Shown here: piece after piece, positions 15,737 through 34,672 of the stretch
Numbering within the stretch: the first letter of the stretch is position 1
How the letters are laid out: each line of letters opens with the position of its first letter
Virus record (IMG/VR): IMGVR_UViG_3300037225_000138
Coordinates: 1-64,000 of that record
Length of the DNA: 64,000 bases
Reading direction: 5' to 3' (one strand)
Source of the DNA: a virus
Position numbers and translations under genes: made by a program
Notes under the pieces: model-generated
What the model saw: only the letters and a program-made list of their open reading frames with translations
Database searches by the model: none
Told to the model about the DNA's origin: nothing

Positions 15737-16029
15737 GAATTGCGGGTAATTTTGATGATTCTCAGAATACTCACGGCAACGGCTACGGCGACGGCTACGG
15801 CTACGGCTACGGCTACGGCGACGGCGACGGCTACGGCGACGGCAACGGCTACGGCTACGGCAAAGCCAACGGCAACGGCTACGGCGACGGCAACGGCTAC
15901 GGCGACGGCAACGGCTACGGCAACGGCAACGGCTACGGCGACGGCCACGGCCACGGCGACGGCTACGGCTACGGCAACGGCAACGGCTACGGCAACGGCT
16001 ACGGCTACGGCAACGGCTACGGCTATTAA
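15724..16029 (+). CDS. Gly-Tyr/Asp/Asn dipeptide-repeat protein
   Basis: A 101-residue protein: a 17-residue leader (MGTVRIAGNFDDSQNTH), then 42 dipeptides in which Gly alternates with Tyr, Asp, Asn or occasionally His or Lys. Every Gly codon is GGC except one GCC, and nearly every partner codon is NAC. ATG 15724 overlaps the previous gene, which suggests coupling. Such a chain would be disordered or sticky; a scaffold, decoy or surface role is conceivable but nothing proves it. The frame is favoured over the others because the unique leader and the paired gene upstream recur together in phages (from memory). Confidence 0.55.
   Translation: MGTVRIAGNFDDSQNTHGNGYGDGYGYGYGYGDGDGYGDGNGYGYGKANGNGYGDGNGYGDGNGYGNGNGYGDGHGHGDGYGYGNGNGYGNGYGYGNGYGY
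15775..16026 (+). repeat. Tandem 6-bp repeat (GGCNAC), 42 units
   Basis: Forty-two units of GGCTAC, GGCGAC, GGCAAC or GGCCAC (one GGCAAA-GCCAAC pair). The variable base is almost always the first of the second codon. It is far more GC-rich than its surroundings and opens all six frames. Confidence 0.95.
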
Positions 16030-16113
16030 CGGGACTCAACGGGTAAGTAAGTATTTACGAGGCAATTAGGTTCGAGTTTTGATCAGGCGTTTTATTCTGC
16101 AAAGGAATATTTA

Positions 16114-32767: not shown

Positions 32768-32851
32768 AAGATCCCCCTGTGCGTTCTTTTCATTTCCGGA
32801 TAGGTTCAGTTTTTTAGAATTTGTTTTCATTCAATGCCGGGGATCTTTTTT
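32768..32851 (+). terminator. Terminator with long structured loop
   Basis: AAGATCCCC (32768-32776) pairs exactly with GGGGATCTT (32839-32847), which runs into TTTT. The 62-base loop has room for an inner structure. It ends the transcript that began at 30.8 kb. Confidence 0.65.
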
Positions 32852-32852
32852 A

Positions 32853-32883
32853 TTTGCAGAATTAAAAAACATTCTTATATTTG
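32853..32883 (+). promoter_or_regulatory. Bacteroidetes-type promoter for the DUF4373 gene
   Basis: TTTG (32853-32856), 19 bases, TATATTTG (32876-32883): full match, directly after a terminator. Transcription would start near 32889, giving a leader of about 127 bases. Confidence 0.8.
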
Positions 32884-32888
32884 CAGAG

Positions 32889-33016
32889 TAAAACACTGTG
32901 ACGTTAAAATGACAATCACCAATAAAATATAAACGAAGTGCGCCCCGGAGGGATGTTCTCCCGAATATCCGTCACAGCTCCGGGGTTGTACTTCACCCTT
33001 TTAACACTGTGACGTT
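32889..33016 (+). promoter_or_regulatory. Structured leader with alternative pairing before the DUF4373 gene
   Basis: The leader holds CTGTGACG at 32896-32903, CGTCACAG at 32970-32977 and CTGTGACG at 33007-33014, the last ending two bases before ATG 33017. The middle element can pair with either copy but not both. Beside it, CCCCGGAG (32943-32950) pairs with CTCCGGGG (32978-32985), extended outward by GAAGT/ACTTC. A seven-codon frame (MTITNKI, 32909-32932) lies between the first copy and the stem. This layout would suit a translational switch, antisense control, or binding of an initiator to DNA. Confidence 0.5.
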
Positions 33017-33017
33017 A
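32892..33017 (+). repeat. 15-bp direct repeat pair flanking the leader
   Basis: AACACTGTGACGTTA occurs exactly at 32892-32906 and 33003-33017, 111 bases apart. The second copy runs into the start codon of the DUF4373 gene. They could be iterons or operator sites. Confidence 0.9.
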
Positions 33018-33550
33018 TGAAGTACTATCTCCATGATACGAGTTCGTTTGATGATGAAAAAATAACTGAATTATATTTAAAATTCGGGTATGAAGGATTG
33101 GGATTATTTTATACTTTACTTGAAAAAATAGCACGTCAGGAGAAACCTATAAAAACTGACGTCTTAAAAGCTCAGTTAGGCATAGGAAAACATCTGGATA
33201 AATGTTGGAATTTCATGGAAGAGATTGGGCTTATTTCGTCAACAAACGGTGATACTTTCAACGGAAGATTGCTGAACTTTAGTGAAAGTTATGAAATAAA
33301 AAAAGAAAACACAAGGAAAAGAGTTTCAGAATGGCGTGAAAGACAACGTAATATAAAAAATGTAACAGATTACAAACCCGTTAGTAACGCTCCTAAAGTA
33401 AAGTTAAGTAAAGAAAAAGAAGAAGAAAAAGAAATTTTGATTTCAAAACCGAAAGGCTATAACGATATAGATTTTGCAAACATTCCAAAGAACGAAGATG
33501 ATTTAAGTTTTCTTAATGAACCTAAAGAAAAAGTTCCGGAAGGATTTTAA
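33017..33550 (+). CDS. DUF4373 (Lin1244/Lin1753-like) replication-type protein
   Basis: A 177-residue protein. Residues 1-90 (YYLHDTSSFDDEKITELYLKFGYEGLGLFYTLLEKIA...) match the DUF4373 N-terminal domain, a winged-helix-like fold in phage and plasmid replication-initiator or DnaD-like proteins. Residues 90-177 are charged and probably disordered (SKEKEEEKEILISKP), perhaps binding a helicase. A promoter and a repeat-rich leader precede it, consistent with tight control of an initiator. Being separate from the primase by 20 kb is unusual. Confidence 0.7.
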   Translation: MKYYLHDTSSFDDEKITELYLKFGYEGLGLFYTLLEKIARQEKPIKTDVLKAQLGIGKHLDKCWNFMEEIGLISSTNGDTFNGRLLNFSESYEIKKENTRKRVSEWRERQRNIKNVTDYKPVSNAPKVKLSKEKEEEKEILISKPKGYNDIDFANIPKNEDDLSFLNEPKEKVPEGF

Positions 33551-33578
33551 AACATGAGAGCAGATATGAAATATTGTT

Positions 33579-33660
33579 TACCTTTGCATTGGTTCATTGC
33601 CGATGAACCAAGTCTGCTTTTCTTGTTTATAGCTTCCCGGGGCATCGTGTATGTCCCGGG
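33579..33660 (+). ncRNA. Candidate small RNA or structured leader
   Basis: After a -7-like TACCTTTG (33579-33586; no clear -33) come two strong hairpins: TTGGTTCAT/ATGAACCAA with a five-base loop (33589-33611), and CCCGGGGCAT/ATGTCCCGGG with one wobble (33636-33660). No good protein frame covers the region, and a second promoter begins right after. Confidence 0.4.
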
Positions 33661-33691
33661 TTTGCCGTCTCTGAAAAATAATTTAACTTTG
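33661..33691 (+). promoter_or_regulatory. Bacteroidetes-type promoter, probably giving a near-leaderless mRNA
   Basis: TTTG (33661-33664), 19 bases, TAACTTTG (33684-33691). The ATG of the next gene is at 33697, five bases after the -7 box, so the transcript would have almost no leader. Confidence 0.7.
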
Positions 33692-33696
33692 ATGCT

Positions 33697-33981
33697 ATGT
33701 TAAAAAAACTCAGGTATTGGTTCTATAACCTTTTCAAACGGAAAACACTTATGGCTACGGAGGTTATAGATGAGTGGACGGTCATTGACTATCATCATCA
33801 GAAGATAAATCTCAGAAAGAGTGAAGTGTTGGCATGGAATGGCTTGTCAAGGTTTGACAAAAGAGCTATGGCTGATCGCTTCAAAAACCTTGAGAAGAAG
33901 AAACTGATTAAGTTTATCGAGATAAATGGCAGGATGACATGTGTGAAAAATCTTAATTACGAAGCAAGGAATGGAAAATAA
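33697..33981 (+). CDS. Small winged-helix-like protein
   Basis: A 94-residue basic protein. Residues 1-15 are basic and hydrophobic (KKLRYWFYNLFKRK); residues about 25-80 (LRKSEVLAWNGLSRFDKRAMADRFKNLEKKKLIKFIEINGRMTCVK) have winged-helix spacing. If translation starts at the in-frame ATG 33730 the basic segment is lost and the promoter spacing is more usual. It overlaps the next gene by 11 bases. Confidence 0.5.
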   Translation: MLKKLRYWFYNLFKRKTLMATEVIDEWTVIDYHHQKINLRKSEVLAWNGLSRFDKRAMADRFKNLEKKKLIKFIEINGRMTCVKNLNYEARNGK

Positions 33982-34672
33982 ACGAACATTTAATAACCAG
34001 GTTTTAATTAAACTCGACCCTGAGAATAAAACTATCCAGACAAAGAGTGGGCTTATATTGTACGTGGATGATACTTTTGAGATGGAGAAGAATATCACTG
34101 TATCGGGTGTGGTATATGGATTGCCGAGTCATCTGTCTTATTGCGGGGAACCGAACAAAGATATGCCATGGGAAACCCCACTTGAATTAAAATACGGTGA
34201 TAAGGTGATTGTTTATTATCTATCGGTCGTCAATGCCTTAAAACCAGAACACCACAGATACTTCATCGAGGGAGTTGATAGATATGTCTTGATAAGTTAT
34301 CAGAGCATCTTCTGTACTTATGGTGATGATTGGGTGAAGCCTATCAATGGTTATGTGTTTGTAGAACCAAGCGAAGACCCCGTTATTCTGACAGAGAAGG
34401 ATAGGATGAGAAAGGCAGGATTAGAATTGGTTGTCTTAAAAACACAGTCAAATACAAACGTGTCCTATGGGAAAGTGAAGTATCTGGGAATACCAAACAG
34501 ACGATACGTGGATTCGGAGTACACTGACGAGGGGGTGGATATTGCCATTGGTGATATTGTGGTGCTTAAAAAAGTTAATGACATACCCGTTCAATATAAT
34601 CTTCACCAGCGAATAAACAACGGGGAATTATTGTGGAGGGTACAGAGGAAAAATATACTTGCAAAGCTATGA
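33971..34672 (+). CDS. Tandem co-chaperonin-like protein
   Basis: A 233-residue protein that reads as two related halves: NNQVLIKLDPENKTIQTKSGLILYVD...KYGDKVIVYYL and NGYVFVEPSEDPVILTEKDRMRKAGLELVVL...AIGDIVVLKK. Each has the order of GroES strands, with the mobile-loop stretch between strands 1 and 2 (TIQTKSGLIL and the corresponding part of the second half). It is twice the size of the GroES-like protein at 16651, so the phage may carry two different co-chaperonins. The gene precedes virion-type genes, which would fit a capsid-folding role. Fold assignment is by eye. Confidence 0.6.
   Translation: MENKRTFNNQVLIKLDPENKTIQTKSGLILYVDDTFEMEKNITVSGVVYGLPSHLSYCGEPNKDMPWETPLELKYGDKVIVYYLSVVNALKPEHHRYFIEGVDRYVLISYQSIFCTYGDDWVKPINGYVFVEPSEDPVILTEKDRMRKAGLELVVLKTQSNTNVSYGKVKYLGIPNRRYVDSEYTDEGVDIAIGDIVVLKKVNDIPVQYNLHQRINNGELLWRVQRKNILAKL

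Follow-up and report, generated by a model that had tools for sequence, protein, structure and literature searches.

The window, that is, the whole 64,000-nt stretch of DNA analysed here, comes from an IMG/VR virus record that is 67,415 bases long and represents an uncultured phage of Bacteroidota type. On its plus strand, a leader of about 128 nt lies between a promoter that we take to be of the Bacteroidota type, from the consensus used to name it, and a gene of 177 codons starting at position 33017. A TAnnTTTG-like motif is found upstream of nearly all related leaders. From the promoter of the window, transcription is predicted to start at about 32888-32891, which agrees with the mRNA start near 32889 proposed by an initial annotation made from the sequence. 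The product of the 33017 gene belongs to Lin1244_N (PF14297, the DUF4373 family; E = 3e-6) and matches the PHROG 'DnaD-like helicase loader' (E = 1e-6); the gene had indeed been annotated as a DUF4373 gene of replication type. DNA and protein searches of INPHARED found no DUF4373 relatives in named phages. The features of the locus are as follows:

32853-32883, plus strand: presumed Bacteroidota-type promoter, read from the sequence as TTTG (32853-32856), a 19-nt spacer and TATATTTG (32876-32883)
32896-32903, plus strand: first copy of element A (CTGTGACG), about 8 nt after the predicted transcript start
32909-32932, plus strand: short leader ORF MTITNKI*, read from the sequence and putatively translated
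32935-32994, plus strand: main hairpin (P1+P2+P3), predicted fold
32935-32941/32988-32994, plus strand: P1, GAAGTGC/GTACTTC
32943-32950/32978-32985, plus strand: P2, the GC-rich stem, CCCCGGAG/CTCCGGGG
32951-32958/32963-32970, plus strand: P3, GGATGTTC/GAATATCC
32970-32977, plus strand: element A' (CGTCACAG), complementary to both A copies (sequence and fold)
33007-33014, plus strand: second copy of element A (CTGTGACG), 2 nt upstream of the start codon
33017-33550, plus strand: putatively regulated gene, encoding a Lin1244_N/DUF4373 protein of the DnaD-like helicase loader or replication initiator type

Other features were noticed around this locus. Just upstream of the leader (32768-32847), a long-loop inverted repeat, AAGATCCCC...GGGGATCTT, is followed by a T-run. 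It also precedes the leader of the closest relative (L024, reverse strand, about 3790-3710) and is probably the terminator of the upstream gene; a similar 3' arm is found in L002 as well. A second leader-like stretch (33551-33697) lies 3' of the DUF4373 gene, with a promoter motif TACCTTTG, a hairpin TTGGTTCATTGCCGATGAACCAA with a T-rich tail and then CCCGGGGCATCGTGTATGTCCCGGG ahead of a 94-codon ORF; the loops of this stretch gave no convincing match with each other. Directly after the initiator region, positions 33971-34672 encode a protein with a weak PHROG match to co-chaperonin GroES. Elsewhere in the window, an ORF at 15755-16069 that starts with MILRILTATATATATATATATA contains a run of Thr-Ala repeats.

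The sequence elements on which the initial annotation was built are all present. Both 32896 and 33007 carry the octamer CTGTGACG, whereas 32970 carries its exact complement CGTCACAG; the GC-rich stem beside this complement is formed by P2, and the outer octamers are contained in exact 15-nt direct repeats (AACACTGTGACGTTA, at 32892-32906 and 33003-33017). Counting both strands of the 64-kb window, the octamer is found five times, three of them in this leader; the mean in shuffled windows is 0.83 and five occurrences were reached in 1 of 100. The predicted fold of the leader is far stronger than that of shuffled sequences (z = -4.35, 0/200). Except for its first base, A' is unpaired in this fold (probability of about 0.99) and its duplex with A has a computed energy of -11.4 kcal/mol. 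Within this leader, complementarity is significant both for A:A' (p = 0.0012) and for A' with the copy at the start codon (p = 0.007). A further complementarity, absent from the initial annotation, links the 3' arm of the outer stem (GTACTTCA, 32988-32995) with the region of the start codon (TGAAGTAC, 33018-33025). The hairpin is followed by just four U (CCCTTTTAAC) and is not called by a consensus terminator scan. An ORF inside the hairpin (MFSRISVTAPGLYFTLLTL, from 32953) was set aside, its start codon being missing in L024.

Relatives of the gene were collected from IMG/VR by a protein search (21 loci) and an alignment search (80 loci), which were reduced to 60 distinct upstream regions including that of the window. 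About a third of them belong to genes located inside an operon, where the preceding ORF extends as far as the ATG; some of these loci retain the gene without any leader. At the remaining loci, a promoter precedes a leader whose hairpin lies near the ATG, mostly with a U-tract. Most relatives carry a GC-rich stem with U-tract ahead of the gene, i.e. a predicted intrinsic terminator. L024 carries the window's own element, with 85% identity over 99 nt. It retains the three octamers, and all of P1, P2 and P3 remain fully paired even though letters of P1 and P3 differ. In L024, the element precedes a different gene, which matches DnaD-like loaders of cultured phages.

The leaders fall into several scaffolds and precede various proteins. 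One RNA class is located ahead of DUF4373 proteins (MKYYLHDS type), Lin1244_N proteins (MEKEAFYFPHF type), an HTH_36-like protein and a few short ORFs; one loop variant alone matched 48 IMG/VR stretches. A third scaffold came up by accident in searches with the octamers of the window; the genes that follow it encode HTH_36 and MarR-like proteins of the initiator type, or other proteins in the case of L316, L284, L330 and L331. Where the family of a downstream gene is clear, it is mostly of the helicase-loader/initiator kind. The class-I covariance model does not match the window, which places the window outside that scaffold class, so that its homology with the class rests on architecture; in 395 Bacteroidia genomes, this model gave one marginal match. 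An exact 21-mer search of bacterial genomes found nothing, and an Rfam scan of the window and 20 related loci gave no gathering-level match, the sub-threshold matches being at chance level. Three stretches retrieved by exact stem searches (L023, L025 and L026) were discarded as chance matches in coding sequence.

Leaders of wholly different sequence share a complementarity between a segment close to the start of the transcript and one in the hairpin interior, for instance AAAACTGAGCGAC/GTCGCTCAGTTTT in L002, AACCAGCGAC/GTCGCTGGTT in L005, GATAGTAGC/GCTACTATC in L056 and GTTAACTAA/TTAGTTAAC in L284. For 22 distinct leaders, this complementarity largely exceeds that of dinucleotide shuffles (Fisher p = 3e-14). 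Moreover, when each 5' part was compared with its own hairpin interior and with those of the other natural leaders (27 leaders), the observed sum was 201 for a mean of 134.5, and none of 20,000 permutations was as high. None of 10 leaderless control loci had significant complementarity. The match is weak in L060, L029 and L109.

Covariation was counted in the largest class, characterized by an AGCCAG terminator (28 sequences, alignment A3), for the 5' hairpin, the terminator and the loop-loop helix. In the 8-bp A:A' helix, 97.3% of cells are paired, and four of the eight pairs have two-sided changes (18 cells) without any one-sided change. The whole structure of these 28 sequences beats 500 of 500 shuffles, and sliding the partners collapses the pairing. 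On one scaffold, the loops are switched between GUAGGAGU/ACUCCUAC, GUCAGAGU/ACUCUGAC, GUCGGAGU/ACUCCGAC, GUGAGAG/CUCUCAC and GUGGUAG/CUACCAC. The third scaffold has its own loop pairs (AAACTATAA/TTATAGTTT, AAACGAAA/TTTCGTTT, AAAGAGTA/TACTCTTT and the pair of L284 given above). Relatives having both gene and leader thus change the letters of A and A' together, which is the covariation that the initial annotation had proposed to look for. Since the window and L024 have the same letters in A, in A' and in the third copy, covariation of the three elements is established for analogous leaders and not for the closest pair. Such pairing kept through changed letters speaks for an RNA control of phage replication genes that is widespread and has not been described before, and the relatives indicate, by sequence comparison, that the leader is a genuine RNA device.

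Some additional observations concern the third scaffold. In L284, L305, L316, L318, L330 and L331, a highly conserved scaffold carries a variable loop complementary to a variable 5' element; it includes a 5' hairpin with a TTGGTA loop, a possible second contact with TACCAA and a terminator GCCTGTGACGG...CCGTCACAGGC. L307 retains the scaffold and has lost the A:A' complementarity. The N-terminal domain of its downstream gene product differs from those of L305 and L318, and L307 looks like a natural recombinant.

Besides the copy near the transcript start, a further copy of A is located 0-5 nt upstream of the initiator AUG in the window, L028 (CCACAAC), L039 (GGGTGTGAA) and L057 (AACACAC). Each of these copies is able to pair with the same A' (p = 0.004-0.04 each). 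The spacing between hairpin and start codon is 8-24 nt in the leaders as a whole, 20-24 nt in those with the third copy versus 8-16 nt in most of those without it; L002 and L005 have a long spacer (23 nt) and lack the third copy. This copy is a minority feature, most relatives having a single A and a hairpin that ends in a U-tract terminator. The alternative-pairing arrangement described by the initial annotation is nevertheless met four times independently, as judged from leaders of unrelated sequence. Since the further A copy abuts the initiator AUG, the same A' could clamp that start.

Many leaders also carry a small ORF. In 10 of 31 leaders, this ORF has 20 codons or more and terminates on the initiator AUG or directly beside it (2.2 expected, P ~1e-5); these 10 ORFs begin soon after the predicted transcript start and their end is often AUGA. 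Furthermore, in 14 of 23 leaders including that of the window, A overlaps the leader AUG or lies at most 5 nt upstream of it (6.7 expected, P ~3e-4). Both probabilities are somewhat optimistic because some of the leaders counted are related to each other. In most AUG-bearing leaders, this AUG clusters at +16 to +21; that of the window (32909) is at +21, with the first A copy located 5 nt upstream of the ORF. The leader ORF of the window has 7 codons and stops upstream of the hairpin, and L024 has no AUG there. With only four U after the hairpin, neither termination nor coupling to the ORF is therefore strong in the window. The leader ORF is also missing in the largest terminator class and in the HTH_36 class, and hence a ribosome step is not universal. 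The leader ORFs of L002, L003, L004, L028, L029, L030 and L060 (31-44 codons) span the whole hairpin. Their aromatic, hydrophobic C-termini are partly dictated by the GGGG-TTTTTT of the terminator, and they possibly correspond to unannotated small proteins.

Sequence statistics thus show that A and A' are complementary and covary; they also show the hairpin, the context of initiator genes, the enrichment of leader ORFs and the location of A at the AUG of these ORFs. From these, we infer, with a probability of about 0.52, that the leader of the window is a cis-acting RNA control of the helicase-loader gene, in which A' masks starts and translation-coupled attenuation takes place. The leader would be transcribed and translated, and the pairing would act mainly in cis. 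The nascent transcript would start with A, on or just upstream of the start of the small leader ORF (MTITNKI in the window), and a ribosome would load on this ORF before A' is transcribed. Its passage would delay or open the hairpin, allowing the RNA polymerase, and then ribosomes, to reach the initiator gene. Once transcribed, A' would pair with A, closing the start of the leader ORF and leaving the hairpin intact; in most relatives, this hairpin is a predicted intrinsic terminator and expression would stop. In the window, L028, L039 and L057, A' may clamp the initiator AUG directly, through a pseudoknot with the third copy, and its pairing with the 5' copy instead would free the start codon. 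In the class devoid of leader ORF, the loop-loop contact would perhaps affect termination alone. Of the earlier interpretation, the alternative-pairing RNA leader is retained: A and A' change together, a third copy is found in four leaders and the stems of L024 have compensatory changes. Two other parts of it, iterons at an origin and a switch run by the DUF4373 protein, are not retained for the reasons given below. The A:A' covariation offers a testable case of a start-site mask, in a device that precedes Lin1244_N, DnaD-like and HTH_36 initiators on several unrelated scaffolds.

Among the other explanations, it is possible, if unlikely, that the leader provides a trans-acting antisense RNA comparable to CI of P4 or C4 of P1/P7, whose A' would hit the A sites of other transcripts. 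The part of the hairpin freed by termination or processing would then silence the initiator of the same phage or of a superinfecting one, and the letters of A and A' would be a specificity code for immunity or copy control. In P4, the pairing of seqA, CI (seqB) and seqC stops expression of the replication genes early, by premature termination (PMC4825925). The A-A'-A order found here equals that arrangement: one internal strand ahead of replication genes is complementary to an upstream and a downstream copy in the window, L024, L028, L039 and L057, most other relatives having the upstream copy only. In P4, a stable processed CI RNA acts in trans; here, the downstream copy abuts the start codon, the A' hairpin is itself a predicted intrinsic terminator in most relatives, and no sequence or Rfam match was found. 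In C4 of P1/P7, a b' loop occludes ribosome-binding sites and a variable a' loop of 7-11 nt confers specificity (PMC5320573); in the immI operon (c4-icd-ant), one loop is complementary to start-site regions of a short leader gene, and the specificity loop varies while the scaffold stays constant (PMC5320573, PMC8198154). Similarly, the loop studied here is complementary to the ribosome-loading region of the leader ORF in the 14 leaders mentioned above. However, C4, a known motif of Rfam type that undergoes processing by RNase P, targets the icd/ant antirepressor operon, whereas our leaders precede helicase-loader/initiator genes and match no Rfam family.

An action in trans would agree with loops that are variable yet matched on a constant scaffold and with the short terminated RNA predicted in most relatives. 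However, in most relatives A and A' lie on one and the same RNA, which would be expected to close upon itself, and the loop GUAGGAGU is conserved across many phages of the largest class instead of being diversified. In addition, nothing among the proteins scanned hints at lysogeny genes, and the Bacteroidia genomes contain next to no match to the class-I model. The fast divergence of A and A' in classes I and III was considered as a proof of specificity in trans; it is not decisive, class I conserving GUAGGAGU. It is more doubtful still that the leaders form an undescribed phage RNA superfamily whose hypervariable matched elements are a trans immunity or copy-control code for helicase-loader genes. 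If so, phages with matching A/A' would shut off each other's replication genes, differing letters having no such effect. This would be a possible RNA specificity code between phages infecting shared hosts.

The leader could also be a free-standing small RNA gene, the terminated, loop-closed RNA being the product and the downstream gene not being a target. The promoter, compact fold and terminator within about 90-100 nt would fit such a gene, as would class I, which lacks the ORF. This is nonetheless improbable, given that the start codon lies only 8-24 nt past the hairpin, leader ORFs end on the initiator AUG, third copies are found at the start codon and several unrelated scaffolds precede one functional kind of gene.

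Quite improbable too is a sensor, i.e. a riboswitch or protein-binding leader in which A:A' would be the switching helix and a ligand, a host factor or the initiator protein would decide. Structured leaders with alternative pairings, and a terminator class typical of expression platforms, are what such a sensor would have. However, no Rfam family was found and the classes share no conserved unpaired core. The occurrence of one RNA class ahead of different proteins speaks against binding by the initiator itself, and recognition by the DUF4373 protein is therefore unlikely as a common principle. For the same reason, identical RNAs also preceding initiators of other families, the switch operated by this protein that had been suggested is not supported, and autoregulation of the initiator is hypothetical.

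The direct repeats had alternatively been viewed as possible iterons, to which the initiator would bind at a replication origin. An exact 15-nt direct repeat (CACTGTGACG in L024) does adjoin the initiator gene, and it is longer than its complementarity to A'. It is very unlikely that it plays this role: there are two direct copies only, most relatives have a single A copy, relatives conserve the complementarity of changing sequences and no fixed binding site, and the GC skew of the window has no inflection at 33 kb. Lastly, an ordinary hairpin with accidental 8-nt matches is barely credible, since the match, modest when taken alone, is backed by the permutation and covariation tests across relatives and by the leaderless controls.

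RNA control is classically known for the initiator genes of plasmids and of P4-like elements. In ColIb-P9, a pseudoknot activates repY-repZ and an opposite-strand antisense RNA represses it. As cited in PMC10724649, repY-repZ of ColIb-P9/IncB couples a leader ORF and a pseudoknot to the initiator. Leader ORFs ending at the initiator start are enriched among the relatives (10 of 31 leaders) and a long-range pseudoknot pairing is predicted, but the leader ORF of the window has 7 codons and stops before the hairpin, and no TAnnTTTG promoter was seen on the opposite strand. As in countertranscript attenuators of the pT181 type, attenuation of transcription would occur ahead of an initiator gene; unlike in these, no countertranscript promoter was seen and the competing strand lies within the leader itself. 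In 33 leaders, a scan restricted to promoters of the TAnnTTTG type found no CAAAnnTA on the plus strand, and a countertranscript is therefore not indicated. The element would work like P4 CI, C4 and repY-repZ but cannot be filed under any of them. In the literature searched, such RNA control of initiator genes is not on record for these Bacteroidota-type phages. During the survey, a cluster of CTGTGACGG/CCGTCACAG repeats on both strands was also noticed in an unrelated virus record (L299, 3410-3496), and a similar one in L303.
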